A stretch of 64,000 nt of DNA from Dasania sp. GY-MA-18 (lineage in GTDB: Bacteria > Pseudomonadota > Gammaproteobacteria > Pseudomonadales > Dasaniaceae), in the NCBI RefSeq assembly GCF_024734385.1, contig NZ_JANHAP010000009.1:1-64000 (forward strand). Direction: 5' to 3'. Below are positions 3,909-21,650 of this stretch, in pieces. The notes under the pieces were generated by a model, which was not told where the DNA came from, did no database searches, and saw nothing but the letters and a program-made list of their open reading frames with translations. The number at the start of each line of letters is the position of its first letter. Within the stretch, counting starts at the first letter, position 1. The position numbers and the translations under genes are program-made.

Positions 3909-6900
3909 TGCCATTATCAATGCCTCCTTGCGCGATCGTTTTATGGTGCTGATCGCGACTGTCATTATTGCGCTAGTCGGCTTGTTTGCTTATAAAAACG
4001 CCCCGCTGGACGCAATACCGGATTTATCGGATGTACAGGTCATCATCTTTACCGAATATCCCGGTCAGTCGCCACAAGTAGTAGAGGACCAGGTTACCTA
4101 CCCGCTAACTACGTCGATGTTGGCGGTACCTCGTACCAAAGTGGTTAGGGGATACTCGTTCTTTGGTCTTTCCTTCGTGTACATCATTTTTGAAGATGGC
4201 ACCGATATGTACTGGGCACGTTCTCGGGTGCTGGAATCTATTAACTATGTCAGTGGCCGATTACCGCAAGGCATTACACCGACGTTAGGGCCAGATGCAA
4301 CAGGTGTTGGTTGGGTCTACGAATATGCACTGGTGGATAAAACGGGTAAACATGACTTAGCCCAACTCCGCTCTTTGCAGGATTGGTATTTACGTTACCC
4401 GTTGCAGACCGTTGAGGGTGTTTCAGAAGTCGCCTCAGTGGGAGGCTACGTTAAACAATATCAGGTAGAAGTCGATCCCAATGCCTTGTTGCGTTACAAT
4501 ATCCCGCTGAACAAAATTAAGATGGCCATCAAAATGTCCAACAAGGATGTGGGTGGGCGTCTGGTTGAGATGGCGGAAACCGAATATATGGTTCGGGGCC
4601 TGGGTTACATACAGTCGATTGATGATCTCAACAGTATTCCAGTAGCTGTTGATGCGAACGGTACGCCCATACGCCTACAGGATGTGGCGCATGTTCAAAT
4701 TGGCCCTGAGCTGCGTCGAGGTCTCGTAGATTTGAATGGCGAGGGCGAGGTTGCCGGTGGTGTGGTGATTATGCGCTTCGGCGAAAATGCTCTGGCTACT
4801 ATCCAAGCGGTGCGAGCTAAGTTAGAGGAATTGAAAGCCGGTTTACCAGACGGTGTAGAGATTGTCCCAGTCTATGATCGTGGTGACTTGATCGAGCGTG
4901 CAGTAAAAAGCCTGAACACCTCACTGATGCAGGAACTGATAATCGTCAGTTTAGTGGTTATCCTGTTTCTGCTACATGCACGCTCGGCTTTCGTGGCGAT
5001 CATTACGCTGCCATTGGGTATTTTGATGGCTTTTATCGTCATGCGCCTCCAGGGGCTCAACGCCAATATTATGTCCTTGGGTGGTATTGCTATTACCATC
5101 GGCACCATGGTCGATGGGGCTATTGTGATGGTTGAGAATGCGCATAGTCGGTTAGCCGAAGCCAGTGAAAAAAAGGCAAGTGAAGGAAAAGGCAGTGAGC
5201 TGACACTGGATGAGCGCTGGAAGACGATTGGCGCGTCCTGTCATGAAGTCGGCCCGGCCCTGTTTTTCTCTCTGTTGGTCATTACAGTATCGTTTTTACC
5301 GATCTTTACTATGCAGGCCCAGGAAGGTCGGCTATTCAGCCCGCTGGCCTTTACCGCTACTTATGCTATGGCCGCTTCGGCAATTTTGGCTATTACCTTA
5401 GTACCAGTGATGATGGGCTATCTCCTACGAGGGAAAATCATTGCTGAACACAAGAATCCGATTAATCGGGCACTACATGCGTTGCATAAACCTGCGTTGA
5501 CGCTGGCGATGCGGTGGAGAAGCATTACTTTAATTGTGGCTGTAGGCTTGTTGGCAGTGACCTACTATCCCTATTCCAAGCTGGGTAGCGAGTTTATGCC
5601 ACCGTTGGATGAAGGCGATATTTTGTATATGCCGACTACCTTCCCTGGCATCTCCATTACCAAAGCCAAGGAGTTGTTGCAGCAAACCGACAAAATATTA
5701 TCGACATTTCCTGAAGTGCATCATGTGTTCGGCAAAGTAGGGCGCGCGGAATCTGCAACAGACTCGGCACCTTTGGCCATGATAGAAACCACGGTTCGAT
5801 TAAAACCGAAAGAGGAATGGCCAGACCCCAAAAAATCAACCAAAGACTTGATGAATGAAATGGATAAGGCGATTCAATTCCCTGGATTGGCTAACGCCTG
5901 GACAATGCCGATCAAAACCCGAATCGATATGTTATCGACGGGTATTAAAACGCCTATTGGTATCAAAGTCTCTGGCCCCGATCTGAATGTCTTACAACAG
6001 GTGTCTCAGGATATTGAGCAAGCCATGAAAACATTACCGGAGACTACTTCGGCCTTTGGTGACAGGGCAGTTGGAGGCTATTACCTGGACTTTAACATTA
6101 ATCGGGAAAGCGCGGCGCGCTACGGGCTAACGGTTGGAGCGGTTCAGGATATTATTCAAAGCGCGATTGGCGGTATGAATATCACCGAAACTGTCGAGGG
6201 GCTTGAGCGGTATCCGGTCAATTTACGCTACCCGCGTGAGTTGCGCGATGACCTGGAAACCCTCAAGCGTGTATTAATACCCACGCCTACGGGCACTCAA
6301 ATTCCCCTGGCGATGGTGGCGGATATTGACTATCAACGGGGTCCTCCGGTCATTAAAAGCGAAGATGCGCGGCCTAACGCCTGGATTTATGTTGATATTT
6401 CCACTTCGGATATCGGTGGTTATGTTGCCAGGGCAAAACGTGTTTTGGAAGAGCAGGTCACAGTGCCCTCTGGGTATACCATTACCTGGTCAGGGCAATT
6501 TGAGTACATGGAACGTGCTGCTGAGCGCCTGAGCATTGTGGCACCAGCAACGCTGCTTATTATTTTCCTACTCCTGTACTTCAATTTCCGAAACATCACC
6601 GAGCCATTAGTTGTGATGATGTCGATTCCGTTTGGTCTCGTAGGCGGAATCTGGCTTATCTATATCAATGATTACAATATGTCGGTGGCTGTTGCTGTGG
6701 GCTTTATTGCGTTGGCAGGGATGGCGGCAGAAATTGGTGTTCTGGTCTTAAGCTTTATTGATGTCGAGATCGCCAAACGACGCGCCGAGTCGAGGCAGTT
6801 GCTATCGCTAGAGGAAATAAAGGATGCGGTACTGTCAGCAACGTCAAAGCGGGTACGACCTGTGGCGATGACGGCCATATCCACGATGGCTGGACTGATT

Positions 6901-7107
6901 CCTATCATGCTAAGTAGCGGCACTGGCTCCGATGTTACGCACCGTATTGCCGCGCCGATGTTAGGCGGGATGTTGACGGTCATGATACTGAATCTTTTGG
7001 TACTGCCTGTGATTTATAGCCTTATTCTACAGCACCAAGAGAAACGCCGAGAGCTACCTACGAATACCGATTATCAAGCGTTAACTAAAGAAGGAGATAC
7101 TGCGTGA
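3901..7107 (+). CDS. cusA: Heavy-metal efflux RND permease, CusA/CzcA-like
   Basis: This 1068-residue inner-membrane proton/metal antiporter is close in length to CusA. The start at 3901 (M-I-N-A-I-I) matches the usual N-terminus and has GGAG at 3888-3891; ATG 3895 and 3874 are in frame but worse spaced. It overlaps the adaptor stop by 8 bases. Typical elements are the first transmembrane helix, P-L-D-A-I-P-D-L-S-D-V-Q after it, two large periplasmic loops, and the helix-4 segment G-T-M-V-D-G-A-I-V-M-V-E-N with the charged Asp/Glu of the proton relay. The second half repeats the first, as in all RND pumps. With the two genes upstream it makes a complete tripartite exporter. Confidence 0.93.
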   Translation: MINAIINASLRDRFMVLIATVIIALVGLFAYKNAPLDAIPDLSDVQVIIFTEYPGQSPQVVEDQVTYPLTTSMLAVPRTKVVRGYSFFGLSFVYIIFEDGTDMYWARSRVLESINYVSGRLPQGITPTLGPDATGVGWVYEYALVDKTGKHDLAQLRSLQDWYLRYPLQTVEGVSEVASVGGYVKQYQVEVDPNALLRYNIPLNKIKMAIKMSNKDVGGRLVEMAETEYMVRGLGYIQSIDDLNSIPVAVDANGTPIRLQDVAHVQIGPELRRGLVDLNGEGEVAGGVVIMRFGENALATIQAVRAKLEELKAGLPDGVEIVPVYDRGDLIERAVKSLNTSLMQELIIVSLVVILFLLHARSAFVAIITLPLGILMAFIVMRLQGLNANIMSLGGIAITIGTMVDGAIVMVENAHSRLAEASEKKASEGKGSELTLDERWKTIGASCHEVGPALFFSLLVITVSFLPIFTMQAQEGRLFSPLAFTATYAMAASAILAITLVPVMMGYLLRGKIIAEHKNPINRALHALHKPALTLAMRWRSITLIVAVGLLAVTYYPYSKLGSEFMPPLDEGDILYMPTTFPGISITKAKELLQQTDKILSTFPEVHHVFGKVGRAESATDSAPLAMIETTVRLKPKEEWPDPKKSTKDLMNEMDKAIQFPGLANAWTMPIKTRIDMLSTGIKTPIGIKVSGPDLNVLQQVSQDIEQAMKTLPETTSAFGDRAVGGYYLDFNINRESAARYGLTVGAVQDIIQSAIGGMNITETVEGLERYPVNLRYPRELRDDLETLKRVLIPTPTGTQIPLAMVADIDYQRGPPVIKSEDARPNAWIYVDISTSDIGGYVARAKRVLEEQVTVPSGYTITWSGQFEYMERAAERLSIVAPATLLIIFLLLYFNFRNITEPLVVMMSIPFGLVGGIWLIYINDYNMSVAVAVGFIALAGMAAEIGVLVLSFIDVEIAKRRAESRQLLSLEEIKDAVLSATSKRVRPVAMTAISTMAGLIPIMLSSGTGSDVTHRIAAPMLGGMLTVMILNLLVLPVIYSLILQHQEKRRELPTNTDYQALTKEGDTA

Positions 7108-7815: not shown

Positions 7816-7929
7816 TGAGTGCCTTCTTCTTATATGCCGACAACATTGGTGTCAAAGCGTTTCTGTCATATTAAGATGTGGAGTCGCTTTGGCATTGTAA
7901 AAAACCGCAAACAAGAAAGGAGTGTGTTG

Positions 7930-8790
7930 ATGCACTACCCCATAAAAGTACCCAAGCAATTGCTCGCGCATAGCCTGTGTTTGGTGATTACGATGATCAG
8001 CATGACAGCCTGCGCGGCTAGCCCAGATGAAAAAATAACACCGTCACAGTCGCCGCCGTCTGACCCTAACTCAGCACCCGATGGACCCTCAGCAGCAGTA
8101 CAGTTTGACAAGATCCAGCAAACCCTCGGGCAGATGAATAACACGTTGAATAAAGCGCGCTCGGATGCACCCAGCGCCAAGGTGCCAGTGGCGAATGCGC
8201 CAGCACCCAAGGTAGCGAACAATGCCATGGAAATGACAAGCGATACACCTCAATCCCCATCCTCTATGTCCAAGGGTAAAATGATGAAATCGATGCCTTC
8301 CAATAAAACACCTGCCAAGAGGGGGATGGGTATGTGCAAAGGGATGATGTGCAAAAAGATGATGATGGGCATGTCGATGATGGGAGAGCCGCCTGCTCCT
8401 AAAGCGACTTCACTGCAAGCCCGCGATCCGTTGCCGGGTTATCCGAATGCGCCTCACCTCTATCATTTGGGGGAAGCGGATTTTTTTCTTGATCACGCGC
8501 AACACCTTGCTTTATCCCCTCAGCAGAGCGCGTCGTTGTCGGCGATCAAAAACCGTTGGACGGCGCAAGAAAAGGATATCGATGCACAGATTTCACAACA
8601 GGAACAGGCGCTTTGGCAAGCCACCGCAACAGGGCAACCTGACATTGTAGGTATTCGTAATAAAGTGACTGATATCGAAGCATTAAACAGTCAGTTCAGG
8701 TTGGCGTTTATTACCAGCGTAGGGAAGGCCGTGGCCGTTCTAACACCTGAACAAGTGGCGCTACTGATGCAAGCAGAGCAGTCCCAATGA
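7930..8790 (+). CDS. Met-rich lipoprotein with Spy/CpxP-like C-terminal helical region
   Basis: The 286-residue protein begins at ATG 7930, which has AAAGGAG just upstream and opens a signal peptide with lipobox M-T-A-C (Cys about residue 33). The earlier in-frame start at 7819 has no such support. After a Pro/Ser/Ala-rich linker there is a Met/Lys/Cys block (about residues 118-158, with runs such as M-C-K-G-M-M-C-K-K-M-M-M-G-M). A helical domain with L-S-P-Q-Q and a Q-E-Q-A-L-W repeat follows, like Spy/CpxP or metal-resistance sensors of the CnrX/CzcX kind. It is inferred to bind copper or another soft metal at the outer membrane. Its stop overlaps the next gene by 4 bases. Confidence 0.6.
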   Translation: MHYPIKVPKQLLAHSLCLVITMISMTACAASPDEKITPSQSPPSDPNSAPDGPSAAVQFDKIQQTLGQMNNTLNKARSDAPSAKVPVANAPAPKVANNAMEMTSDTPQSPSSMSKGKMMKSMPSNKTPAKRGMGMCKGMMCKKMMMGMSMMGEPPAPKATSLQARDPLPGYPNAPHLYHLGEADFFLDHAQHLALSPQQSASLSAIKNRWTAQEKDIDAQISQQEQALWQATATGQPDIVGIRNKVTDIEALNSQFRLAFITSVGKAVAVLTPEQVALLMQAEQSQ

Positions 8791-10748
8791 GCGTGACGAT
8801 GACAATACACCAGCGGCCGATGTTATTAGTAAAACATCTGTATACAGACCTGTGGGCACTCATACCGGTGTGCCTGGTCGGGGTTTTTTTAAGCTTGCCG
8901 GTGCACGCTCAGTTGTCGGACGAGGAACATCAAAGCCACCATCCGGACTTTTACGGCGAAAAGCAGCCCCAGGCCAACCAAGCCCAACAGACTAACAGCG
9001 CTGCACCTAATGCACCACAGTCAGCAGGCATGGGGAGCGGCATGGGCAAAGGCATGGGCAAAGGCATGGGAAAAATGATGGATACCATGATGGAAAAAAT
9101 GGGGGCACCAAAACCCAAGGATCTGTATCCCTCGTTGATGCGCCTACCGGATATGCCCGCCGAGCAGCGCGATAAAGTCGAAGGCGATGCACAGCGGCGC
9201 ATGGTAGAGGGGACCGTGATCATGCAGCAAGGGTTCGGTGCGCTGAGTCAGGCGAATGCGCGGCAAGATTTTGCGCTAATGCAGTTAGCGGTGAGCGATA
9301 TTGAACAAGGGCTGGCGCAATACGACAGTGGGTTGGCGGCCAAACGGGCGTTGGCAGAGGGGCAAGCGCCTAGAAATATCGCCCTGCAATGGTTCAAACG
9401 CGAAATGAATTTGTTGCCAACCCTTTCCAATGATGAGCCGTATTTTTTTATGGGGATGTCACCACTACACACAAGCGTTATGATGATTTTGTTGTTGTTT
9501 GCTGCACTGATGATATGGATGTATCTGTTTAAAATGCGACGGGCAGCAGCATTGTTAGATGAATTACGTCACCGGCCAGTGGTTCCCGCTGCTGTGCCTG
9601 AACAACGTGATTCAATACCGTCCATTAACACGTCTAACGATGAAGAGTCGATCAGTGATTTGACGACGACACCTTTGGTGGAACCCACCAAAGGCAATCG
9701 ATATACGGGTCGATTAAAGGTCGTCGGTATTTTTTCCGAAACACATGACGTGAAAACATTCAGGTTAGCGATGCCCACTGGGGAGCCGTTGCCGTTTACC
9801 TACGAACCGGGCCAGTTTCTGACGTTTACCTTGACGATCCCGGAGCAGGGTAAGCCGGTTAAGCGCTCCTACACCATTGCTTCCTCACCCACACAGCGTG
9901 ATCACATCGAATTGACCATCAAACGGGAAGATCAGGGTCTAGTGTCGCGGTATATGCACGATACGGTGGTGTTGAGTGACCTATTGGATGTGAAAGTACC
10001 GAGCGGCCGATTTTATTTCAATGGCAGCGATACCGATAATGTTGTTTTGATCTCAGGTGGTGTGGGAATTACGCCAATGATGAGTGCAGTACGTTACTTG
10101 ACGGATCAGTGTTGGCCCGGCGCGATTTACTTTCTGTTTTGTGCTCGTACCAATAATGATTTTATTTTCCAGCAAGAGCTAACGTATTTGCAAGCACGAC
10201 ACAAAAACTTGCACGTCCTTGTGAGCATGACACGAGCGGAGGGTACCAGTTGGATGGGGCCGCAGGGCCGCTTTACACCGCAACTCATTAATGATTTTGT
10301 GCCGGATATTGTGTCAAAGGAAATTCATATTTGCGGTCCTCAACCGATGATGGATGGTGTGACGTCGATGCTGAAGGAATTAGGCGTTCCCGAAATGCTC
10401 ATCAAAACCGAAGCATTCGGTGCTGCCCCGGTCGCGAAAAAATCATCGCCCTCTGCGTCGACAGCCACTGCACCGTCGTCTGATACGGCAATCACAGCGC
10501 ATTTTTTGACTTCACAAAAAACCGCCACAATGACGGCCGATGAAACGGTGCTGGAAGCAGCCGAGGCGGTGGACGTTGAGATTGAGAACTCATGCCGCGC
10601 TGGCAGTTGTGGAAGCTGCATGGTCAAGCTGGTGTCGGGCAGCGTGGTGATGGACGTTGATGACGGATTAGAGGAAGAAGACAAGGTTCAGGGGTATATT
10701 TTGGCCTGTCAAGCCATCCCTTCCACTGATATTGAGGTGGAGGCGTAA
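8787..10748 (+). CDS. Membrane-anchored FAD/NAD(P) oxidoreductase with C-terminal 2Fe-2S domain and Met-rich periplasmic part
   Basis: The 653-residue fusion starts with a signal-like hydrophobic segment (about 14-41). A Met/Gly/Lys-rich stretch follows (about 81-106) and then a helical region of unknown family (110-220). One membrane helix lies at about 228-249. The cytoplasmic half is a ferredoxin-reductase module: FAD motif R-S-Y-T (360-363), nucleotide site G-G-V-G-I-T-P and C-G-P-Q-P-M-M. The last 90 residues are a plant-type 2Fe-2S ferredoxin with C-x4-C-x2-C and a later Cys. It resembles Hcr-type reductases at the C-terminus, but the N-terminal half is unusual. It overlaps the lipoprotein and leads into membrane and heme proteins of the hydrogenase locus, so electron exchange between NAD(P)H and the periplasm is the inferred role. 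Confidence 0.8.
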   Translation: MSVTMTIHQRPMLLVKHLYTDLWALIPVCLVGVFLSLPVHAQLSDEEHQSHHPDFYGEKQPQANQAQQTNSAAPNAPQSAGMGSGMGKGMGKGMGKMMDTMMEKMGAPKPKDLYPSLMRLPDMPAEQRDKVEGDAQRRMVEGTVIMQQGFGALSQANARQDFALMQLAVSDIEQGLAQYDSGLAAKRALAEGQAPRNIALQWFKREMNLLPTLSNDEPYFFMGMSPLHTSVMMILLLFAALMIWMYLFKMRRAAALLDELRHRPVVPAAVPEQRDSIPSINTSNDEESISDLTTTPLVEPTKGNRYTGRLKVVGIFSETHDVKTFRLAMPTGEPLPFTYEPGQFLTFTLTIPEQGKPVKRSYTIASSPTQRDHIELTIKREDQGLVSRYMHDTVVLSDLLDVKVPSGRFYFNGSDTDNVVLISGGVGITPMMSAVRYLTDQCWPGAIYFLFCARTNNDFIFQQELTYLQARHKNLHVLVSMTRAEGTSWMGPQGRFTPQLINDFVPDIVSKEIHICGPQPMMDGVTSMLKELGVPEMLIKTEAFGAAPVAKKSSPSASTATAPSSDTAITAHFLTSQKTATMTADETVLEAAEAVDVEIENSCRAGSCGSCMVKLVSGSVVMDVDDGLEEEDKVQGYILACQAIPSTDIEVEA

Positions 10749-10752
10749 CGGT

Positions 10753-11508
10753 ATGAATACGCAAGAACGTCACCTCGTCACCGGCTTATTGGTGTTAATG
10801 CTACTACTCTGGGCGGGGTTTGTTTGGCACCGTGATCCGGCGTTTCCAGGCAGTTTTACCGGCGGCATGCTTGGTATTGCCGCTGCGGCGTTTATGTTTG
10901 TGCCCTTTGTGTATCTGGTGATCAAACGCATCAAACCGCTAAAAAAATGGGTTACCCGCCGCGTGTCGATGCCCAAACTTTTGTTGTGGCATATCTATGC
11001 CGGGATCATTGGTCCGATCCTGGGACTACTGCACAGTGCGCATCGCTTTGACAGCACTGTGGGTATCGCGTTGATCTTACTGATGTTCATTGTGGTGATC
11101 AGCGGGTTTGTCGGGCGCTATTTGCTAGGCCACATCTCGTCGGGTATTCGCGCAAAAACAGTGTTAAGGAATGATTTGTACCAGGAATTTCAGCAGGCTT
11201 CTTCAACGCTGTGTGATCAAGATCAGTGCGATCACGCTACGCGCCTGACCAACACACACCCGTCGTTATTGCCGGCGATGAGCCTGGCGGGATGGCATGA
11301 GCGGTCAATAGGGGATAGCCCTGCCGAAAAAATACCCCGTTTAGTGGATGCGCTTTCTGATATTGATTACAGCATCGCGATGCACGATATCATCAAGCGA
11401 TGGTTTAAACGCTGGCTGAAATTTCATATCGTTATCTCCTGCACGCTGTATGCGCTGTTGATTTTTCATATTGCGGCTGAAATCTATTTTGGATTGAGGT
11501 GGCTATGA
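10753..11508 (+). CDS. Membrane protein resembling a di-heme cytochrome b
   Basis: The start is ATG 10753, four bases after the reductase stop. The 251-residue product has about five membrane helices. Histidines sit in or near helices (H-I-Y-A-G, L-H-S-A-H-R-F, L-G-H-I-S, K-F-H-I-V-I-S, F-H-I-A-A-E), the pattern expected of a b-type cytochrome or ferric-reductase-like transmembrane domain. A soluble stretch with C-D-Q-D-Q-C-D-H lies near residues 153-160. It lies between a flavin/2Fe-2S reductase and a heptaheme cytochrome c, so it likely passes electrons across the inner membrane. It is not a clear HupC/HyaC homologue. The heme assignment is inferred from His placement only. Confidence 0.6.
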   Translation: MNTQERHLVTGLLVLMLLLWAGFVWHRDPAFPGSFTGGMLGIAAAAFMFVPFVYLVIKRIKPLKKWVTRRVSMPKLLLWHIYAGIIGPILGLLHSAHRFDSTVGIALILLMFIVVISGFVGRYLLGHISSGIRAKTVLRNDLYQEFQQASSTLCDQDQCDHATRLTNTHPSLLPAMSLAGWHERSIGDSPAEKIPRLVDALSDIDYSIAMHDIIKRWFKRWLKFHIVISCTLYALLIFHIAAEIYFGLRWL

Positions 11509-12299
11509 AGACAACACTATTGCTCGTGGTCGGTATTGGCGTGGTTGTTGCGCTGTTGAGTCACTATCTCCATTCACCGGAAGTAATGGCGGACATTGGC
11601 TGGGAACAAACCGTAGTACCTGGCAAGCTCAGTACTGCTCATGCGTTTTTAGACGACAACTGCGAAGCCTGCCACACACCGGTTCAGGGCATCGTGCGTG
11701 ACAATTGTGTGGTGTGTCACGCCGATGATACCCACATTTTGCAGCGTCAACCCACCGCTTTTCATGCGGACATTAATGAGTGTGCAGTTTGTCATACAGA
11801 GCACCAGGGCCGCGAGTCCAAGATTTCAACGATGGATCATTCTGCACTGGCCACCATAGGACTGGATACGTTGGGGCAGTTCAAAGACCCCAATCATGAA
11901 GGCGTTATTGCAAAAGCGTTTCTTGAAGATTTGCTGGACTCGGGCAGAAGGCCAGGCCCATTGTTCGTACACCCTGATGTGTTGGCGCAAGAAGCCCTGT
12001 TGAATTGCAGTACCTGTCACGCCAATGATGATCGGCACTTGACCCTGTTTGGTCAGGACTGCGTGCAATGCCATCGTACCGATCAGTGGTCATTGCCGGA
12101 GTTTTTGCATCCCTCTAACCAGTCCCGTGATTGTAATCAGTGTCACGAAGCGCCGCCCAGCCATTATATGCAGCATTTTAAGATGATTTCAGCCAAGGTG
12201 GCCGGCGAACCCCACGCGCCCGTTGAACAGTGTTTTGCCTGCCATCAAAGCACGTCCTGGAACGATATCAAACGCGCTGGCTGGTACAAGCACCACTAA
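11505..12299 (+). CDS. Heptaheme periplasmic cytochrome c
   Basis: The 264-residue protein has an N-terminal uncleaved-looking membrane segment (about residues 4-22) and seven C-x-x-C-H motifs: C-E-A-C-H, C-V-V-C-H, C-A-V-C-H, C-S-T-C-H, C-V-Q-C-H, C-N-Q-C-H and C-F-A-C-H. It is related to class III/NapC-NrfB-like multiheme carriers. ATG 11505 is preferred, with GAGG at 11496-11499. It overlaps the preceding membrane protein by 4 bases, so the two are coupled. It should be anchored facing the periplasm, where it can take electrons from the hydrogenase small subunit or give them to it. Partners are inferred from operon order. Confidence 0.85.
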   Translation: MKTTLLLVVGIGVVVALLSHYLHSPEVMADIGWEQTVVPGKLSTAHAFLDDNCEACHTPVQGIVRDNCVVCHADDTHILQRQPTAFHADINECAVCHTEHQGRESKISTMDHSALATIGLDTLGQFKDPNHEGVIAKAFLEDLLDSGRRPGPLFVHPDVLAQEALLNCSTCHANDDRHLTLFGQDCVQCHRTDQWSLPEFLHPSNQSRDCNQCHEAPPSHYMQHFKMISAKVAGEPHAPVEQCFACHQSTSWNDIKRAGWYKHH

Positions 12300-12314
12300 C
12301 ACAAGGAACGATGT

Positions 12315-13538
12315 ATGGCTCTTAACAGTATTGCCCTCGGTGTGACCTTTTTGATTGGGGTAATGTTATTTCACCGGCGGATGATTGGGTCATCACAATG
12401 GCGTGCCACCGTCACGCCGCTGGCGTCGATTATTGGCAGCGGCTTTTTGATTATCGCACCGTTGTTGCATTCTGTGATGGGAAAATGGGCGTTACTGGGT
12501 ATCGCGGGGCTATCCATTTTTGCCTATGGGCTGGGGTGGATTATTCGCTATAACATTGTCAATGCCGAACCGGCCCTGCAACGTGAAAAACAGGGCGTCA
12601 TCGCGTGTCTGGAGCAGGCCGCCCAATGGAGTTTAGGGGTCGCGTTTGCGATCTCCGTGGCGTTCTACCTCAGCTTATTCATTGCTTTTATGTTTGATCG
12701 GATCGGCATCGTTGATGTTACTGCCTCAAAGTGGGCAACCACCGGGTTGTTGATGAGTATTATGGGCATTGCCTGGTGGCGCGGTGCACGCGGACTCGAA
12801 TCGATAGAGCTGTTCGCGGTCTCGATCAAACTGGCCATCATCCTGGGGGTACTGGCCGCCTTGCTGGCCTATGATGTGCAATCCGGCACCACCTGGTTTG
12901 CCCACGACCCGATCGCTGACTTTACTACCGCACAGACGCTGGCGATGTTGGCCGGGATGTTAATGGTCACCCAAGGGTTTGAAACGGCCCGTTTTATGGG
13001 GGGGCAATATTCTGTAAGGCAGCGTGTAAACGCAGTCAAGTACTCCCAATGGATAGCGATTGCCTTGTACGTCACGTTTATCGGGCTTACCTGTCCTATC
13101 TTTTTGACCTATCCCATTGTTGAACTCAATGAAACAACCATCAGCGAGACGCTGGGCCAGGTGGTGTGGGTATTGCCCCTGTTACTGTTAGTCGCCGCCA
13201 CGGCGAGTCAACTCAGCGCTGCCCTGGCGGATACGATTGGTGGCGGCGGCCTGTTGAAGGAACTGGTCAAGCTCCGCTTATCGACCAACGTGTATTACAT
13301 GCTGATCATTGTGTTGGCGTTGATTCTGGTCTGGGTCGCCAATGTCTTTGAAATCATCAACTTCGCCTCCAAAGGCTTTGCCCTGTATTACCTGATCCAG
13401 GTGTTGATTGCATTGATACTGATGATCAGACAACCCCAGCACAGCGCCTGGAAAGGCTTGATGTTACTGGTGGGTGGTGTGATGGCCGGGCTGTTGGTCT
13501 TTGTTATCGGCTGGTCGATACCGGCCCCTCACAGTTGA
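12315..13538 (+). CDS. APC-like multi-pass membrane permease
   Basis: The 407-residue protein has about eleven hydrophobic segments. An S-I-I-G-S-G-F-L-I-I-A-P segment near residues 37-48 resembles the first-helix motif of amino acid/polyamine/organocation (APC) transporters. It starts 15 bases after the heptaheme cytochrome gene with an AAGGA site and lies 15 bases before the hydrogenase maturation protease, so it is inside the hydrogenase operon. No substrate can be assigned. A role in supplying a metal-related or small organic compound, or a non-transport membrane role, would be speculation. Permeases are not standard parts of hydrogenase loci. Confidence 0.55.
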   Translation: MALNSIALGVTFLIGVMLFHRRMIGSSQWRATVTPLASIIGSGFLIIAPLLHSVMGKWALLGIAGLSIFAYGLGWIIRYNIVNAEPALQREKQGVIACLEQAAQWSLGVAFAISVAFYLSLFIAFMFDRIGIVDVTASKWATTGLLMSIMGIAWWRGARGLESIELFAVSIKLAIILGVLAALLAYDVQSGTTWFAHDPIADFTTAQTLAMLAGMLMVTQGFETARFMGGQYSVRQRVNAVKYSQWIAIALYVTFIGLTCPIFLTYPIVELNETTISETLGQVVWVLPLLLLVAATASQLSAALADTIGGGGLLKELVKLRLSTNVYYMLIIVLALILVWVANVFEIINFASKGFALYYLIQVLIALILMIRQPQHSAWKGLMLLVGGVMAGLLVFVIGWSIPAPHS

Positions 13539-13553
13539 GCGTAGGAGCCCTGA

Positions 13554-14153
13554 ATGGAGATGACAGCTAACGAAAAACCGACTGGTCAAACCCAGAAAAA
13601 GGAGAGCGGTTCGCAAGAAGCAATGCAGTATAACGGCATAATCACCATCATTGGTGTGGGTAATCTGTTGCTCAGTGACGAAGGGGTGGGCGTGCATGTG
13701 GTGCGAAGTTTGACCGAGCAACTGGAGCACGACCAGCGGATCACGTGTATTGATGCGGGCACGCTGAGTTATGAATTACTGGAGTGGGTAGCGACGGCAG
13801 ACGCCGTGTTATTAATCGACGCGGCTCAACTGGATGCACCCGCTGGCACAGTCGCGCAGTTTACCGATCACCAGGTGGAAGCGCATTTTGCGTTGGCGTC
13901 CTCCCAAACCGTCCATCAAATCAGCGTGCGTGATGTGCTGAATACGGCGCGCATTTTGTATCAGCGTCCCCGGCACTGGACCCTGATCGGGATTCAGCCG
14001 AGCATCATGACCTGGGGGGACACGCTGAGTGAACCGGTCACGCAAAACCTGCCTACGGTTTTTGCCGCTATCGCAGATACCTTACGGCATTGGGGTGTTG
14101 AAGTAGAAGATACTCTACATCCATCTTGCCACTTTTCAGGAGTAGAACAGTGA
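13554..14153 (+). CDS. hupD: [NiFe]-hydrogenase large-subunit maturation protease (HyaD/HupD family)
   Basis: This endopeptidase removes the C-terminal tail of the hydrogenase large subunit once nickel is inserted. The 199-residue protein has the family start I-I-G-V-G-N-x-L-L-S-D-E-G-V-G-V-H (about residues 33-48), in which the Glu is a metal ligand, then I-D-A-G-T-L-S-Y and L-L-I-D-A-A. An N-terminal extension of about 27 polar residues precedes the conserved core, so a later start (for example ATG 13623, M-Q-Y-N) is possible. It directly precedes hupH and overlaps it by 4 bases. Its substrate site survives in the broken large-subunit gene (D-P-C-L-A-C-A-V-H). Confidence 0.88.
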   Translation: MEMTANEKPTGQTQKKESGSQEAMQYNGIITIIGVGNLLLSDEGVGVHVVRSLTEQLEHDQRITCIDAGTLSYELLEWVATADAVLLIDAAQLDAPAGTVAQFTDHQVEAHFALASSQTVHQISVRDVLNTARILYQRPRHWTLIGIQPSIMTWGDTLSEPVTQNLPTVFAAIADTLRHWGVEVEDTLHPSCHFSGVEQ

Positions 14154-14605
14154 CTCTGGATACAGACATTATTTTCACTACAGAACAACAGAAAACCACA
14201 GGTAATGTGTTGCCCCTACTGCACGAAATTCGCCACGCACTTGATACGTTAGTCGATGAAAAAAAACCTACAATCATCGACCTGCGGCGCATTCCCCTTA
14301 GTGCAGACGACGAAGAAAAGCTTGAGACCTTTTTAGGGACAGGCGAGGTAAGAGCAGAAATAAGTGCATTGGGGCCAACCGTCTTGCAAGAAACACTGTA
14401 TTCAGGTGTGTGGATTGAGACTCACTACAACGAGCATGACGAGGTGATGGGAAAATTTATCACCATCGCCACGGCGCCACACATACTGCTGGCGCAAGAC
14501 AGTGATATGGAAGCCGGGTTGACGCGCTTGACTCATGACCTGGACACACCTTTACCCTCAACAGGAGGATCATCACCTGATGATCCTCCTGTTGAACAAC
14601 GTTAG
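14150..14605 (+). CDS. hupH: Hydrogenase expression/assembly protein HupH/HyaF-like
   Basis: The 151-residue protein starts at GTG 14150 with AGGAG at 14138-14142, overlapping the protease stop (GTGA). The C-terminal half carries the HupH/HyaF signature: L-E-T-F-L-G-T-G-E-V-R-A-E-I, then L-Q-E-T-L-Y-S-G-V-W-I-E-T-H-Y-N. These proteins assist maturation of the Fe-S small subunit, probably as chaperones. It is about half the length of HyaF (about 285 residues), as is common for short HupH forms. The last codons hold a perfect 17-bp inverted repeat. It directly precedes the broken small-subunit gene. Confidence 0.8.
   Translation: MTLDTDIIFTTEQQKTTGNVLPLLHEIRHALDTLVDEKKPTIIDLRRIPLSADDEEKLETFLGTGEVRAEISALGPTVLQETLYSGVWIETHYNEHDEVMGKFITIATAPHILLAQDSDMEAGLTRLTHDLDTPLPSTGGSSPDDPPVEQR
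14559..14594 (+). repeat. Perfect 17-bp inverted repeat at the 3' end of hupH
   Basis: Arm one (14559-14575, CAACAGGAGGATCATCA) is the exact reverse complement of arm two (14578-14594), with only CC between. It lies inside the last codons of hupH, 20 bases before the small-subunit start. There is no U-tract after it, so it is not a classical terminator. The transcript would form a very stable hairpin that buries an AGGAGG sequence. Possible roles are an RNA-stabilising or processing hairpin that sets the ratio of structural to assembly proteins, or a weak terminator. Confidence 0.8.
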
Positions 14606-14614
14606 GAGTTCTGC

Positions 14615-15607
14615 ATGTCTTCTTCAATCTCGCTGGGCGAACGTTTATCGCAACAAGGGGTTAGCCGCCGAACCTTTGTTAAATTTTGTGCGACGACGGC
14701 TTCGTTACTCGCGCTGCCACAAACGGCGGTGCCGCAAATGGTAGCAGCACTCAGTGCCGCCAGACGTCCATCGGTGATCTGGTTGCCGTTTCAGGAATGC
14801 ACCGGGTGTACAGAGGCGATATTACGCTCCCACGCACCCACCCTGGAAAGCCTGATTTTTGACAGTATCTAGCTGGATTATCAGCACACCATTATGGCGG
14901 CGGCGGGCGATCAAGCCGAACGCTCACGCCATGATGCCATGCGTGACAACAAAGGGCAGTACCTGCTATTAGTTGATGGATCAGTGCCGCTTGGGAATAA
15001 AGGGTATTCCACCATTAGTGGGCAAAGCAATGTTGACATGTTAGTGGAAAGCGCCAAAGATGCTGCTGCTATTGTTGCCATTGGTACCTGTGCCTCGTTT
15101 GGCGGCATTCCCAAAGCGAACCCTAATCCAACCGGCGCGGTCTCGGTCAGCAATATCATCACTGATAAGCCGATCATCAATGTCTCGGGTTGCCCCCCCT
15201 TGCCAATTGCCATCACGGCTGTGTTGGCCCACTACCTGACCTTTAATACGCTACCAGCGTTGGATTCTCTTAACCGACCGCTGGCTTTTTTTGGGGATAC
15301 TATCCACGACCGGTGTTACCGACGCCCTTTCTTTGAACAGCGAAAATTTGCCAAATCCTTTGATGACGAAGGCGCTAAAAATGGTTGGTGTTTGTTTGAG
15401 CTTGGCTGTAAAGGCCCGGAAACTTATAACGCCTGTGCCACGGTGAAATGGAACCAGGGCACCAGTTTCCCCATAGAATCCGGTCATCCTTGCCTGGGCT
15501 GTTCAGAACCGGATTTTTGGGATCACGGCAGTTTTTATCAATCACTCTTTCCGTGGGAGCGTTATAAAGCCAAACCGGGGGCAGGCAAAGGTGGGCCCAA
15601 TCATTGA
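14615..15607 (+). pseudogene. hupS: [NiFe]-hydrogenase small subunit, interrupted by an in-frame amber codon
   Basis: This is the Fe-S electron-transfer subunit of a group 1 hydrogenase, 330 codons plus stop. A Tat signal (S-R-R-T-F-V-K-F) is followed by E-C-T-G-C-T-E, the proximal-cluster Cys pair. TAG at 14870-14872 interrupts the motif S-I-x-L-D-Y-Q-H-T-I-M-A-A-A-G, where homologues have Ser; one base change (TCG to TAG) explains it. The same frame runs on to 15607 with G-T-C, S-G-C-P-P, C-Y-R-R-P, L-G-C-K-G-P-E-T-Y-N-A-C and H-P-C-L-G-C, which complete the cluster ligands. Re-initiation at 14894 would lose the proximal cluster. The extra cysteines of O2-tolerant enzymes are absent and no C-terminal membrane anchor is present. 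Probably inactive unless the amber codon is suppressed. Confidence 0.88.
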
Positions 15608-16967
15608 ATATTGACATTAACTGGCAGGAACATGAGCGATGAGTGAACAAAAAAGTACTGATCGACTGGTGGTTGATCCCATCACGCGGATTGAGGGACA
15701 TTTGCGCATAGAGGCGGAAATGGACGGCAATACGATTAAACAGGCGTATTCATCAGGTACCTCGGTGCGAGGTATTGAACGGATTTTACAAGGTCGTGAC
15801 CCGCGCGATGTATGGGCCTTTGCGCAGCGCATTTGTGGTGTGTGTACCCTGGTTCACGGTATGGCCTCCATTCGCGGTGTTGAGCATGCGATACGGTCGG
15901 CCTGGCAATCTAACGCGCCGTTAGGGGTTGCGACCGGCAAGCATGGTCCACCAGGCCTGTCACCTATGGCCGCATCCGGTCCTGACGGAATGTCTATGCC
16001 GCACCCGGCAATGGGACGAGGGCCGAACAAAAGTGGGATGAAACACGGCCCACCCAAAGGGCGTGGCCATGCGATGGCCTCAAGCGCGGCGCCTGCGGAC
16101 ATGGCCATACCGCCCAACGCGCAGTTGATCCGCAATCTGATGATCGGCACGCAATTTGTGCATGATCATGTGATGCATTTTTATCACCTGCATGCACTGG
16201 ATTGGGTGGATGTATTGTCGGCACTCAAAGCCGACCCCACAAAAACCGCCGCGTTAGCGGGCTCACTCAGTCGTTATCCGCGTTCATCGCCTGGCTATTT
16301 TCGCGACATGCAAACCAAACTCAAGGTGTTTGCTGAGTCTGGCCAACTGGGAATTTTTGGTAATGCCTATTGGGGGCATCCAGGTTACAAGCTACCCCCG
16401 GAGGTCAACTTGATGGCGCTGGCGCACTATCTCGATGCGCTGTCATGGCAGCGGGACGTGGTCAAAGTACACACCATATTTGGCGGAAAAAACCCCCATC
16501 CCAACTTTGTGGTCGGAGGCGTGCCATGCCCCATCAATCTGGATGCCGATACGGGGATCAATACGCGTCGACTGGCACAATTGCAAGAAGCAATCACATC
16601 GATGCGTACCTTTGTCGATCAGGTATATCTGCCCGATATACTGGCGATTGCAGGCTATTACAAAGAGTGGGGTAGCCGGGGAGAGGGGTTAGGGAATTTT
16701 CTTACCGTAGGGGATTTACCGTCGAACGGTATGGACGACCCGTCATCGTTTTTGTTTCCCCGAGGGGTGATTTTAAACCGCGATTTAAGCCGCGTGTATG
16801 ACGTCGATCTAACTGATCCAGCCGAGATACAAGAGTTTGTCTCTCACTCCTGGTATGACTACCGCGGTGGCAAACAGCAGGGCTTGCACCCATGGTCAGG
16901 CGAAACAGACCTCAATTATTCGGGCCCTGCGCCGCCGTACAAACACCTGGATGTGAATAACAGTTAT

Positions 16968-18276
16968 CTATGGACTCTCCTCGGTTTGCAAGTAAAAAAG
17001 ACAAAAAACTTAAGTCGACTGCATATATCTATTCGGCCCTGTGGATACCCACTGACCCAGATGACATTTGCGCGTAAACACCTCATTATTCAGGCGGTCT
17101 CAAACAACCAAAACTGTTATCAGGTCTTATCTACGCACGGTCGATGCCGTTTTCATCTAACTTACTCTGCAATCAAGGATTGCCTCTTAATTTCAACAAC
17201 AGCAAATGTTTTCTTTTTTAGCCATAATAGCCCAAAGCATTCTTGCTTGCTTTGCCGCGTAAGCCACTGCTACAACGTTGTCAGGTTTGTTTTTTCTGAG
17301 TTTCTCTATCCATTCGGTGTGAGCCCCCCTTCCTTTGGTAGACATTAACATTACCGTTCTTGCGCCATGCACCAATAATGTCCGAAGATATATATCACCT
17401 TTCTTCGTGATTCGGCCTAACTTTGATTTTCCACCAGATGAGTATTGCCTTGGCACCAAACCCAGCCATGCTGAAAATTGCCTACCATTCTTAAACGTTC
17501 TTGTATCTCCAGTTGTAGCCACCACTGCCGAAGCTGTTAGTGCGCCAATGCCATCCATTTTCAGTAACTCTTTAGAAACAGGATTAGAACGCGCCCATCG
17601 CTCGATTATTTTGTCAAATTGTGCAATTCGATCTTCTTCTCTCAATACCGCTGCATAGAGGTCATGTATGATCTCTGCTAGTAGAGGGGAAAGACGTCCT
17701 TCTCCTAATACCACAGACAGTTCTTTTTTACATTTCGCTCGTCCCTGGCTGAATACATAACCAAATTCTGCTAAGTGCCCTCTGATTTGATTCATTAACG
17801 CTGTTCTCGTAGAGATGCTTTTTGAGCGCACTCTATGCACTACGAGTATTTCTTGTTGGGCCTCTGTTTTAATGGCAACAAACCTAGCATTAGGCCTGCC
17901 TATAGCTTCACAAATTGCGGCAGCATCGTTTAAATCATTCTTCTCCTTAATCAGGTAAGGTTTAACGTATTTTGGGGCTATTAGATGTACATTATGCCCT
18001 AGTTTGCTTAATTCTCTTCCCCAATAATTACTGCTACCACATGACTCAATACCGATTGTTGCAGGAGGTAACTGTGCAAAAAATCTGAGCATGCTCTGGC
18101 GCTTTAACTTTTTCTTTAAGGAGTTATTACCATACTGGTCGACGCCGTAAGCGACAAAAATGTTTTTAGCAATATCTAACCCTATACGAACTGTTGCGTT
18201 TTTCATGATTCCTTCTCCTTTCAGAGTGACACTCAAAGGGTAGACGCTGAAGGTAGAGGAGAGTCCATGTCATTAT
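16968..18276 (+). mobile_element. IS110-family (IS1111-like) insertion sequence in hupL
   Basis: The element spans about 1.31 kb between the two hupL pieces. Sub-terminal perfect 13-bp inverted repeats are present: ATGGACTCTCCTC at 16970-16982 and its reverse complement at 18256-18268. Sub-terminal repeats plus a DEDD transposase on the opposite strand fit the IS1111 subgroup. The trinucleotide TAT occurs at both junctions (16965-16967 and 18274-18276), so the exact ends are uncertain by 3 bases. Host sequence rejoins in frame. Confidence 0.88.
17193..18206 (-). CDS. IS110-family transposase (DEDD, Tnp_IS1111-like)
   Basis: The 337-residue product starts at ATG 18206 (M-K-N-A-T-V-R-I-G-L-D-I-A-K), with GGAG a few bases upstream; the in-frame start at 18236 has less support. 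The N-terminal RuvC-like DEDD domain shows G-L-D-I-A-K, I-G-I-E-S-C-G-S-S and K-N-D-L-N-D-A. The C-terminal transposase_20 domain has M-D-G-I-G-A-L-T-A and F-S-A-W-L-G-L-V-P-R-Q-Y-S-S-G-G-K, with the catalytic Ser region. It is full length with no visible lesion, so the element may still be mobile. Confidence 0.92.
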   Translation of the reverse strand: MKNATVRIGLDIAKNIFVAYGVDQYGNNSLKKKLKRQSMLRFFAQLPPATIGIESCGSSNYWGRELSKLGHNVHLIAPKYVKPYLIKEKNDLNDAAAICEAIGRPNARFVAIKTEAQQEILVVHRVRSKSISTRTALMNQIRGHLAEFGYVFSQGRAKCKKELSVVLGEGRLSPLLAEIIHDLYAAVLREEDRIAQFDKIIERWARSNPVSKELLKMDGIGALTASAVVATTGDTRTFKNGRQFSAWLGLVPRQYSSGGKSKLGRITKKGDIYLRTLLVHGARTVMLMSTKGRGAHTEWIEKLRKNKPDNVVAVAYAAKQARMLWAIMAKKENICCC

Positions 18277-18925
18277 TCGTGGCTAAAGAGTCCCCGTTGG
18301 CGGGGCAAGCCGATGGAGGTGGGTCCCTTGGCTCGGGTACTGATGATGTATGCCACCGGCGATGCGCAGGCCAGAGAATTGGTTGACAGCTCGTTAAGCC
18401 TGCTGAAGCTGGATCAGCGCGCGCTGTTTTCAACTTTGGGCCGCACATTGGCGCGCGCGTTAGAAACGAAAATCCTGTGTGACAATCTGCAGAGCTGGTA
18501 TGACCGTTTGGTCGCCAACATTAAACAGGGTGACACCCGAACCTTCAATGAGCGGTATTTTGATCCTGCTTATTGGCCTAAGGAAGGCAAAGGTATTGGC
18601 ATCATGGAAGCCCCACGGGGGGCACTCGGTCATTGGATCGTGATGAAAGACGGCCTGATCGATAACTACCAATGTGTGGTGCCAACCACATGGAATGCGG
18701 GTCCGCGTGACCCCAATGGGCAGACGGGAGCCTATGAGGCTGCGTTGCAAGATAACCATACCTTGGTCGATCAAGCACAGCCGCTCGAAATTTTACGTAC
18801 CTTGCACAGTTTTGATCCGTGTTTAGCGTGTGCGGTTCACCTGATGGACGCACACGGCAATGAGCAACTAAAAGTCAAAATCCGATGAATTTGGCTGTCC
18901 CACAAACAACACTTTGGAGAATGAA

Positions 18926-19150
18926 ATGGACAATATAACGACCCGTCGACAGGCACAAAAAAGCCTTGGTCGTCTCTATCTATTACTAGGTATCAGTGGT
19001 CTGTTGCCGGCTGTGTTTGCGCATGTTGGCCCTGTCGGCGAACACATTCATTATGCCGGGGCGGCGCTTCACACTTTAGTGCTGATAGCGCTCGCTGTGG
19101 CAACACTTGTGTCGACGGGTCTGTACTTAACCCGTAAAAGAACACCGTAG
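18926..19150 (+). CDS. Small two-helix membrane protein in the hydrogenase operon
   Basis: The 74-residue product starts at ATG 18926 with GGAGA at 18916-18920. It has a short polar N-terminus, two hydrophobic helices (about residues 17-34 and 45-66) and a basic C-terminus (T-R-K-R-T-P). His residues occur between the helices (G-E-H-I-H-Y-A-G-A-A-L-H). I do not recognise the family. Its place between the large subunit and hypC, where membrane components sometimes occur, suggests a small anchor or accessory subunit, but the evidence is position only. Confidence 0.6.
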   Translation: MDNITTRRQAQKSLGRLYLLLGISGLLPAVFAHVGPVGEHIHYAGAALHTLVLIALAVATLVSTGLYLTRKRTP

Positions 19151-19159
19151 GGGAATGCG

Positions 19160-19387
19160 ATGTGCTTGTCCATACCCATGCAAATCGTCGACATTGACGG
19201 GTTAACCGCGCAGTGTACTGCCAAAGGTGTCAATCGTTCAGTCAGCCTGTTTTTGCTGCAAGATACGCCGTTGGTAGAAGGCGACTATGTCATGGTGCAT
19301 GTGGGGTATGCGCTTGAACGTATTTCCCTGGAAGACGCCCAAGTCACCTGGGCGTTACTGGATGATATGGTTTCAGCAGATGCATGA
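19160..19387 (+). CDS. hypC: Hydrogenase maturation factor HypC
   Basis: The 75-residue protein begins M-C-L-S-I-P, the defining HypC/HupF N-terminus whose Cys2 carries the Fe(CN)2CO unit together with HypD. The body shows the small OB-fold pattern (V-x-x-G-D-Y-V-M-V-H-V-G-Y-A-L) and ends acidic. It starts the maturation set hypC-A-B-D-F-E and overlaps hypA by 8 bases. It is intact, although both structural genes upstream are broken. Confidence 0.93.
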   Translation: MCLSIPMQIVDIDGLTAQCTAKGVNRSVSLFLLQDTPLVEGDYVMVHVGYALERISLEDAQVTWALLDDMVSADA

Positions 19388-19769
19388 GTTCAGTATTTGC
19401 CAGAGTGTGCTTGAGCAAGTTGAACAGATAACCCGGCGTCATCATGCCCGGCGCGTAACGCGTATCGTACTCAGCGTGGGCCCGCTGTCCGGGGTGGTTG
19501 ACGTACTGCTACAACGAGCCTTTGACGCATTGCGCCTTGGCAGTGTGGCTGAAACGGCTGTTCTGGATATTCACACACCAGCAGTCATTGTGGCGTGCCC
19601 GTCGTGTAAAAAAGAGTCCCGCGTACCGACTAACCGATTACTCTGCCCACACTGCCAACAATGGCAGACAACGTTGGTCAGCGGAGATGAGCTGGTGTTA
19701 TTGCGCATTGAATTTGCCCCTAACACCTTGTCTGACAATGGTCATTCTGTGGAGAACGAACATGTGTAA
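19380..19769 (+). CDS. hypA: Hydrogenase nickel incorporation protein HypA
   Basis: The 129-residue protein starts M-H-E-F-S-I, where His2 is the nickel ligand. A zinc site is present as C-P-S-C-K and C-P-H-C-Q around residues 74-94. The start ATG 19380 overlaps the end of hypC, and the earlier in-frame start at 19287 would remove the conserved N-terminus, so it is rejected. The last 20 residues are a polar extension. HypA delivers nickel with HypB. The stop overlaps hypB by 8 bases. Confidence 0.92.
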   Translation: MHEFSICQSVLEQVEQITRRHHARRVTRIVLSVGPLSGVVDVLLQRAFDALRLGSVAETAVLDIHTPAVIVACPSCKKESRVPTNRLLCPHCQQWQTTLVSGDELVLLRIEFAPNTLSDNGHSVENEHV

Positions 19770-20544
19770 CACCTGTGGTTGTGATGCCAACGATCATCAA
19801 CACAAACATCATGCGCCTTCAGCATCGGTTCCGGAGAGTTCGGAGTTGTATACCGCTATTCTGCAACCTGACGAGATCGTAGCAGCCAGGAATCGGCAGC
19901 AGTTCGAGCATCACCGAGTGCTGGTAGTGAATCTGATGTCGTCGCCGGGCAGCGGCAAAACCCAGCTGATCGAACAGACTATCCAGACACTGAACGATGA
20001 AATTACAATCGCCGTTATTGAAGGGGACCTGGACACCGAAAACGATGCCCTGCGCATTCGTCGCCATGGCGTTCAAGCCGAGCAAATCACCACTGGCACA
20101 GCCTGCCACCTGGATGCGGCGATGATTGAAACCGTATTGCCGAAGTTCTCACTCGATACCATTGATATTCTCTTTATTGAAAATGTCGGTAATTTGATTT
20201 GCCCGGCCTGTTTTGATCTGGGCCAGGATGCCAACGTGGTGTTGTTATCGGTACCCGAAGGGGATGATAAGCCGGAAAAATACCCGGTCATGTTTCGCGC
20301 CGCTGATCTGATGCTGATCACCAAAACGGACTACCTGCCCGTCGCGACGGCATTTTCAATCCACCGGGCGACGCAGTCATTTCGAAACGTAGGTGGTCGA
20401 GCCCCTGTGCAGGAACTGGCGGCGCCGTTGGATAGAGGGGTGTCAGCATGGATTGACTGGCTGTTGAGCGCCTATGCACAGAAATTCACTGCACTATCCA
20501 CCCCATCACCCTCGGAGACCGCTGATGCGCCGCCAAAGTGTTGA
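19762..20544 (+). CDS. hypB: Hydrogenase nickel incorporation GTPase HypB
   Basis: The 260-residue protein starts M-C-N-T-C-G-C-D, the high-affinity N-terminal nickel motif, then a short His cluster (H-Q-H-K-H-H). The GTPase core has the P-loop S-S-P-G-S-G-K-T, E-G-D-L-D-T-E-N-D and the family C-P-A-C-F-D-L-G segment with the metal Cys, then T-K-T-D-Y-L. It is a standard SIMIBI GTPase of nickel insertion. The start ATG 19762 overlaps hypA and the end overlaps hypD by 20 bases. Confidence 0.93.
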   Translation: MCNTCGCDANDHQHKHHAPSASVPESSELYTAILQPDEIVAARNRQQFEHHRVLVVNLMSSPGSGKTQLIEQTIQTLNDEITIAVIEGDLDTENDALRIRRHGVQAEQITTGTACHLDAAMIETVLPKFSLDTIDILFIENVGNLICPACFDLGQDANVVLLSVPEGDDKPEKYPVMFRAADLMLITKTDYLPVATAFSIHRATQSFRNVGGRAPVQELAAPLDRGVSAWIDWLLSAYAQKFTALSTPSPSETADAPPKC

Positions 20545-21649: not shown

Positions 21650-21650
21650 C

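Follow-up and report, generated by a model that had tools for sequence, protein, structure and literature searches.

A disrupted AltDE-type hydrogenase operon beside a putative NAD(P)H-to-periplasm conduit in Dasania sp. GY-MA-18

Gene organization and lesions of the hydrogenase genes

The sequence analyzed here (the window) comprises the first 64,000 nucleotides of contig NZ_JANHAP010000009.1 of Dasania sp. GY-MA-18 and is part of a 3.8-Mb genome. CusCBA-type efflux genes near its left end are followed by three genes for putative redox proteins, a permease gene, and a set of [NiFe] hydrogenase and hyp genes extending to position 25006 (Table 1). The three redox genes, hereafter referred to as the trio, specify a FAD/NAD(P)H/[2Fe-2S] protein, a cytochrome b-like protein and a heptaheme cytochrome c. 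A sequence-only reading centred on the interval 8787-15607 had assigned its genes to a flavin/2Fe-2S protein, a b-like cytochrome, a heptaheme cytochrome c, an APC (amino acid-polyamine-organocation) permease and the hupD, hupH, hupS and hupL products. All of these assignments were borne out by Pfam matches, motif counts and fold comparisons.

Table 1. Features from the efflux genes to hypE
Feature	Position	Strand	Basis
CusCBA/CzcCBA-like heavy-metal efflux system	1004..7107	+	Pfam OEP, HlyD_D23, ACR_tran
Efflux outer membrane component	1004..2371	+
Efflux adaptor	2334..3908	+
Efflux resistance-nodulation-division (RND) pump	3874..7107	+
Met-rich protein, weak Metal_resist match (heavy-metal sensor type)	7930..8790	+	Pfam PF13801
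Met-rich, membrane-anchored FAD/NAD(P)H/[2Fe-2S] reductase	8787..10748	+	Pfam FAD_binding_6, NAD_binding_1, Fer2
Cytochrome b-like membrane protein, probably two hemes, ferric-reductase/NOX-like	10753..11508	+	Invariant His, model, weak fold matches
Membrane-anchored heptaheme cytochrome c, expected periplasmic	11499..12299	+	Seven CXXCH; MtrC-like and c7/c3 Pfam matches
APC-superfamily permease	12315..13538	+	AlphaFold model and Foldseek
hupD/hynD maturation protease	13554..14153	+	Pfam HycI
hupH	14126..14605	+	Pfam HupH_C
hupS/hynS small subunit, broken by TAG	14615..15607	+	Twin-arginine translocation (Tat)-like signal by eye
hupL/hynL, N-terminal 443 codons, with RICGVC	15639..16967	+	Pfam PF00374; alignment to intact L053 copy
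IS110-family insertion in hupL	16968..18272
Transposase of the insertion	17193..18236	-	Pfam PF02371, PF01548
hupL/hynL, C-terminal part, with DPCLAC	18273..18888	+	PF00374 positions 319-508
Small protein, one C-terminal span, HxGxxGxH motif	18926..19150	+	Translation
hypC (19160), hypA (19380), hypB (about 19762), hypD (20474), hypF (21600), hypE (23954)	19160..25006	+	Pfam; hypC by eye in translation; all frames open

Two genes of the hydrogenase set are damaged. The hupS reading frame contains an in-frame TAG codon at 14870-14872 (...SLIFDSI-TAG-LDYQHTIMAAAG...), at a position occupied by serine (TCG or TCA) in 10 of 10 relatives and by TCG in the nearest of them, locus L053 from a Cellvibrionaceae metagenome-assembled genome, the closest relative found. 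The Tat-like signal and the ECTGC motif lie in the piece on the 5' side of the TAG; the 3' piece carries neither. The hupL gene is interrupted after codon 443 by a 1,305-bp element of the IS110 family. Alignment to L053, where hupL is a single frame of 646 amino acids and hupS is intact as well, set the boundaries of the element with a 4-bp overlap; the net gain of 1309 bp leaves the two parts of hupL in different frames. The element is present in one copy in the genome, which rules out a multicopy repeat, and a profile search of the genome yielded no PF00374 large subunit besides the broken one. Given the TAG in hupS and the insertion in hupL, the operon as it stands cannot make a hydrogenase. 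Both lesions had escaped the sequence-only reading; the C-terminal part of hupL lies beyond the interval it considered.

It seems very improbable that these lesions are assembly or sequencing errors, or that the TAG is read through, and that the hydrogenase is functional in this strain. Such an explanation can appeal to the fact that no other lesions were seen, the remaining hydrogenase and hyp frames being open, and that the assembly was judged without reads. It has to contend with an insertion that is a complete-looking element endowed with a transposase gene, an inverted repeat of 13 bp close to each of its ends and the 4-bp overlap mentioned above, and readthrough would be of no help to hupL because its two parts sit in different frames.

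Pairwise comparison with L053 gave ratios of nonsynonymous to synonymous divergence (dN/dS) of 0.042 for hupS and of 0.045 and 0.048 for the two parts of hupL. The permease gene gave 0.050, the genes of the trio 0.12-0.20 and that of the Met-rich protein 0.45. Because of the low hupS and hupL ratios, the hydrogenase appears to have been normally constrained until recently, implying that its inactivation would be a recent event. Synonymous divergence (dS) between L053 and the window, measured across 7902-22827, is patchy: it amounts to 0.33-0.42 in the cytochrome b, permease and hupS genes and is low (0.07-0.10) in the heptaheme cytochrome, hupD, hupH, hypA and hypD genes. This pattern suggests that recombination may have taken place between variants of the island.

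Distribution and neighbourhood of the trio

A scan of GTDB genomes with the cytochrome b identified 266 stretches encoding a relative, and the 80 best-scoring ones were kept, so that close relatives are over-represented. The whole trio was found in the same order and on one strand in 80 of the 80 loci, which to go by their titles include Pseudomonadota, Planctomycetota, Nitrospirales and Bacteroidota. Contig edges cut some loci short (L060, L068 and L069 among them), and counts of neighbouring genes were limited to those with enough downstream sequence. In 62 loci the sequence continues for at least 5 kb beyond the heptaheme gene; 8 of these carry hupS/hupL and 17 the permease gene, 9 of the 17 lacking hupS/hupL. 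The notion that the four accessory genes go together with a hydrogenase was thus largely contradicted, for the trio by the 8 of 62 and, for the permease, by the 9 of 17. Relatives of the cytochrome b were also found in 52 plasmid records, including plasmids of Sphingobium, Spirosoma, Variovorax and Methylophaga.

For 22 of the closest loci, the whole genomes (21 in all) were searched: nine have a large subunit that shares at least 76% identity with the Alteromonas one (in G429 on a separate, edge-cut contig), two have only a 53%-identical one and ten have none. These genomes were picked via the trio, so the 9/21 figure says nothing about hydrogenases without a trio. In a sample of 295 genomes of the Alteromonas family, nine encode the cytochrome b, and four of these nine, but no others, have a large subunit with at least 93% identity. 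A fifth genome of this sample has a 54%-identical large subunit. Large subunits with at least 90% identity occur in eight plasmid records, each of which also carries the cytochrome b. From these figures we infer that the hydrogenase of the Alteromonas deep ecotype (AltDE) type goes with the trio, and that the trio can do without the hydrogenase.

Two copies of the trio are found on plasmid pBBta01 of Bradyrhizobium BTAi1 (L050/L135). One of them has a shortened FAD gene adjoining an IS3 transposase gene; about 10 kb from the other copy lies a 57%-identical hydrogenase, with copper genes in between.

Six loci carry scars of deletions. In five of these (L062, L063, L065, L121 and L186 (Salinimonas iocasae)) the permease gene adjoins a hypF that sets in at residue 683, and a complete or residual hypE, merR and copA come next. 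The sixth, L131, has a different junction, in which a hynD remnant (1-44) is joined to hypE (295-350). Trio and permease are retained in all six loci read. At least two different deletions have therefore removed the hydrogenase and left the trio in place. The five-locus junction may derive from one event that spread with plasmids, because its carriers mix with hydrogenase-bearing loci in the tree of the trio.

The trio lies mostly near copper genes. At least one of ten copper-gene queries matched in 45 of 56 trio loci of at least 15 kb and in none of 20 control stretches of 20 kb (tblastn, E 1e-10; 10 of 14 queries counted), an effect whose size is approximate because the queries derive mostly from neighbours of the trio and because of the make-up of the controls, which were drawn from the order and class of the window and from genomes of the Alteromonas family. 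Among the long loci lacking a hydrogenase, 42 of 50 gave a match. An earlier control set (37 loci, no match) was dropped, its loci being merely 3-4 kb long. Seven trio loci outside the Alteromonadaceae were read gene by gene. Those of Methylophaga, Spirosoma, Variovorax and Sphingomonas contain genes for copper/heavy-metal ATPases, multicopper oxidases, CopB or DUF411 proteins, and multicopper oxidase and CopB genes lie beside the second trio copy of Bradyrhizobium. The Pontibacter locus has an RND efflux system instead of copper genes, and the Methylocystis locus shows little. A second FAD or 2Fe-2S oxidoreductase gene is found in L044 (119-1951) and L186 (340-2172), next to a membrane gene of the PepSY type or annotated as a peptidase and to copC/copD. 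This gene may be a further hint of metal reductases in such islands.

Hydrogenase class and candidate electron partners

The combination of genes in the window, for which the sequence-only reading knew no counterpart among described hydrogenases, had already been published as the HynSL operon of the Alteromonas deep ecotype. The operon has the order orf1/cyt/orf2/hynD/hupH/hynS/hynL/hypCABDFE (PMC3102683), the enzyme is active in vitro when expressed in Synechococcus (PMC3102683), and it is highly identical to that of Thiocapsa (PMC3701524). Hydrogenase genes have been placed on a transferable metal-resistance island (PMC4781885, PMC8478169). By gene order, Orf1 would correspond to the cytochrome b, Cyt to the heptaheme protein and Orf2 to the permease. 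Plasmids of Alteromonas macleodii and Glaciecola have the same gene order, with hynSL unbroken. The succession cytb-cytc-APC-hynD-hupH-hynS-hynL-small ORF-hypCABDFE is present in the window, which shares with the Alteromonas operon (PMC3102683, PMC4781885) the order from cytochrome b to hypE, the metal island, the absence of HupC, a HynS without anchor and a Met/His-rich HynL loop. It differs in lacking intact, translatable hynS and hynL genes, the former bearing the TAG and the latter the IS110-family insertion. Other differences are the CusCBA genes directly upstream, a glutamate dehydrogenase gene in place of merR-copA after hypE, and trio proteins sharing 52-66% identity with their counterparts in L044 and L045.

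Maximal HynSL activity in E. coli needed Orf2, and not Orf1 or Cyt (PMC3102683); a second study agrees on orf2 for optimal activity (PMC3701524). The permease gene could accordingly encode a maturation helper, for example an importer of a metal or metabolite, and be the only accessory gene of the four with a functional tie to the hydrogenase. The protein matches no Pfam family. Its AlphaFold model, of middling confidence (predicted template modelling score 0.76; mean predicted local distance difference test score, pLDDT, 69.5), gave a best Foldseek E value of 6.3e-7 to APC amino acid transporters and matched Nramp as well, a fold that would suit an importer. We regard this possibility as doubtful: hupS/hupL are missing from 9 of the 17 loci that have the permease gene, the six scarred loci have all kept this gene, and the equation of permease with Orf2 is based on gene order, not on sequence.

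The absence of HupC, the cytochrome b subunit that commonly accompanies such enzymes, was confirmed. No match to E. coli HyaC was found in the 80 trio loci (tblastn, E 1e-5), and nothing in the Dasania genome exceeded the TIGR02125 (HupC-type) cut-off of 121.5 bits. The best candidate, on a different contig (C2), scored 25.6 bits and was rejected. As to HupC in relatives, a possibility raised in the original reading, TIGR02125 matched above the cut-off in 4 of 13 genomes searched (G424, G433, G434 and G435). In all four, the match directly adjoins a second, 53%-identical large subunit and never the AltDE-type one. Equally well founded was the claim that the small subunit is anchorless. The best 19-residue hydropathy in the last 70 residues is -0.18 in the window and -0.17 to -0.18 in ten relatives, as against 2.03 for E. 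coli HyaA, which served as the positive control; the TIGR00391 match in the L053 small subunit stops at position 310 of 365.

Between hupL and hypC, a protein of 71-78 residues with a signal-like N-terminus, the motif HxGxxGxH and one C-terminal span is encoded in 4 of 4 copies read (in addition to the window, L045, 21700-21915; L044, 21711-21926; L053, 10722-10958). Its gene is annotated in L044 and L045. The small protein could be the membrane anchor that the anchorless hydrogenase is missing.

The best solved structure for the L053 large subunit is 3myr_B (924 bits), the next row being 4c3o (707 bits). Entry 3myr is the A. vinosum enzyme, filed as group 1e. The nearest solved large subunit thus relates the window type to the group 1e enzymes (Allochromatium/Thiocapsa HynSL with Isp1/Isp2). 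Unlike these, and unlike the related plasmid locus L134, the window has no gene between hupS and hupL, which are 31 bp apart, and no HdrD-like (Isp-type) gene was found among the operon reading frames scanned with Pfam. With the HupC/HyaC-linked uptake hydrogenases of group 1d the window has in common the hupD, hupH and hyp genes and a Tat-type S/L core; it differs from them in the absence of HupC and of a small-subunit anchor. Group 1d enzymes have extra Cys where the window has its ECTGC motif. A large-subunit tree, an analysis envisaged in the original reading, placed the N-terminal part of the window's subunit in a six-row clade with L053 and four Alteromonadaceae rows (support 99/98), outside of which E. 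coli HyaB falls; since the tree has 12 rows and long branches outside this inner clade, the inner clade alone was used.

In 5 of 5 island-type relatives measured, the RICGVC region and NAQLIRN of the large subunit are separated by a loop of 52-73 residues that is rich in Met, His, Gly and Pro; the corresponding stretch is 5-9 residues long in L134, L135 and E. coli HyaB. In the window this loop is encoded at about 15900-16090 (by eye); the large-subunit genes of L053 and L045 occupy 8756-10696 and 19804-21681, respectively. The loop is possibly a metal-binding insertion of hydrogenases residing on copper islands.

With no HupC, no gene between S and L and no anchor on HynS, the hydrogenase is left without another dedicated partner in sight. 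It is conceivable, on this account, that in organisms with two intact units the heptaheme cytochrome serves as a docking site for the hydrogenase, with electrons passing via the b hemes to the flavoprotein or in reverse, and that the conduit stands in for HupC. The tight gene order is in keeping with such an arrangement, as is the finding of the trio in every sampled case of this hydrogenase subtype. We nonetheless find it unlikely: the trio usually stands alone and is kept where the hydrogenase has been deleted, the present genome cannot produce a hydrogenase, and Orf1 and Cyt were dispensable for maximal activity in the E. coli experiments cited above (PMC3102683), although an in vitro assay is blind to any requirement for the natural partner. 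The idea that the trio is a dedicated substitute for HupC was not supported and was rejected, the trio being mostly found without a hydrogenase and retained after its loss.

A putative electron conduit on metal-resistance islands

The FAD/2Fe-2S protein is 38-54% identical to eight plasmid relatives. In the heptaheme cytochrome, all seven CXXCH motifs are invariant in an alignment of nine sequences, the window's included. Seven histidines of the cytochrome b (26, 80, 94, 97, 211, 225 and 239) are invariant among 55 sequences. Two pairs of them, 80/94 and 225/239, are each spaced 14 residues apart and fall, in the model (mean pLDDT 79), on the two helices that span 73-95 and 190-250. Two His pairs on two helices are the pattern expected for two b hemes across the membrane, and these predicted sites are probably heme ligands. 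The list of structural matches is headed by SpNOX (Z 9.6, 120 residues, root-mean-square deviation 3.2) and cytochrome b561, with STEAP and NOX5 lower; the match to Pfam Ferric_reduct (E 0.02) is below the cut-off. Like NADPH oxidases and ferric reductases, the conduit combines a NAD(P)H-FAD domain with a membrane protein bearing paired His on two helices. It differs from them in being split over two genes and in having an extra [2Fe-2S] domain, a Met-rich segment and an external heptaheme cytochrome c. A literature search on the trio found no description of it in titles or in the first parts of abstracts.

We consider it likely that the locus harbors a recently inactivated AltDE-type HynSL hydrogenase beside an NAD(P)H-to-periplasm conduit whose role is most likely in metal (copper) stress, the whole being carried by a metal-resistance island. 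The domain order of the trio proteins suggests the direction of electron flow, from NAD(P)H to a periplasmic acceptor. On the cytoplasmic side, NAD(P)H would reduce the FAD/[2Fe-2S] protein; electrons would cross the membrane via the two-heme cytochrome b, and the heptaheme cytochrome c would deliver them in the periplasm. A second unit would consist of the AltDE HynSL-type [NiFe] hydrogenase together with the maturation protease, HupH and the Hyp proteins; it is inactivated here, and the frames of the conduit stay open. This picture builds on the gene content, the two lesions, the independence of the cassette, its copper-gene neighbourhood and the repeated loss of the hydrogenase.

Several findings weigh against it. 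The hydrogenase subtype, when sampled irrespective of the trio, has it in 4 of 4 genomes and 8 of 8 plasmids, and this constant presence, together with the tight packing of the genes, fits what is expected from a functional link. In the copper test, the queries came for the most part from plasmid neighbours of the trio and the controls were not phylum-matched; 3 of the 20 controls match a sensor-kinase query, one of the four left uncounted, and 11 of the 56 long loci match none of the counted queries. The structural matches of the cytochrome b are weak, unrelated helical bundles scoring close to the best Z value, and a Foldseek search with this protein gave no match below E 0.001.

More speculatively, and with limited confidence on our part, the trio could represent an undescribed, widely exchanged class of transmembrane reductases of copper/heavy-metal islands, a split NOX-like system whose terminal heptaheme cytochrome would reduce Cu(II) or some related metal species in the periplasm. 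A hydrogenase bearing the Met/His-rich large-subunit loop would have been plugged into it in a few lineages, with H2 feeding or draining the same periplasmic cytochrome.

A new type of hydrogenase is thus no longer at issue, the operon being published, the present copy broken and its redox genes independent. The interest of the locus now lies in a widespread trio cassette found mostly near copper genes. A conduit acting in metal stress offers an account of why Alteromonas hydrogenases are found on metal islands and of the loss of the hydrogenase from loci that keep the cassette.

Among the remaining features, the RND pump matches NCBIfam TIGR00914 (CusA/CzcA) above the cut-off. The Met-rich protein encoded just upstream of the trio matches PF13801 with E 3.3e-5 and 24.5 bits, below the gathering score of 29.2; at the equivalent position, L045 and L049 have a gene annotated as hypothetical or as a periplasmic heavy metal sensor. 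Neither a tRNA gene nor an Rfam family reaching the gathering score was detected within the window. Downstream of the hydrogenase genes, near a MerR regulator gene, the segment 29918-30550 encodes a HigB-like toxin with a helix-turn-helix antitoxin downstream, and a short protein with a PEP-CTERM sorting motif is specified at 31641-32192.

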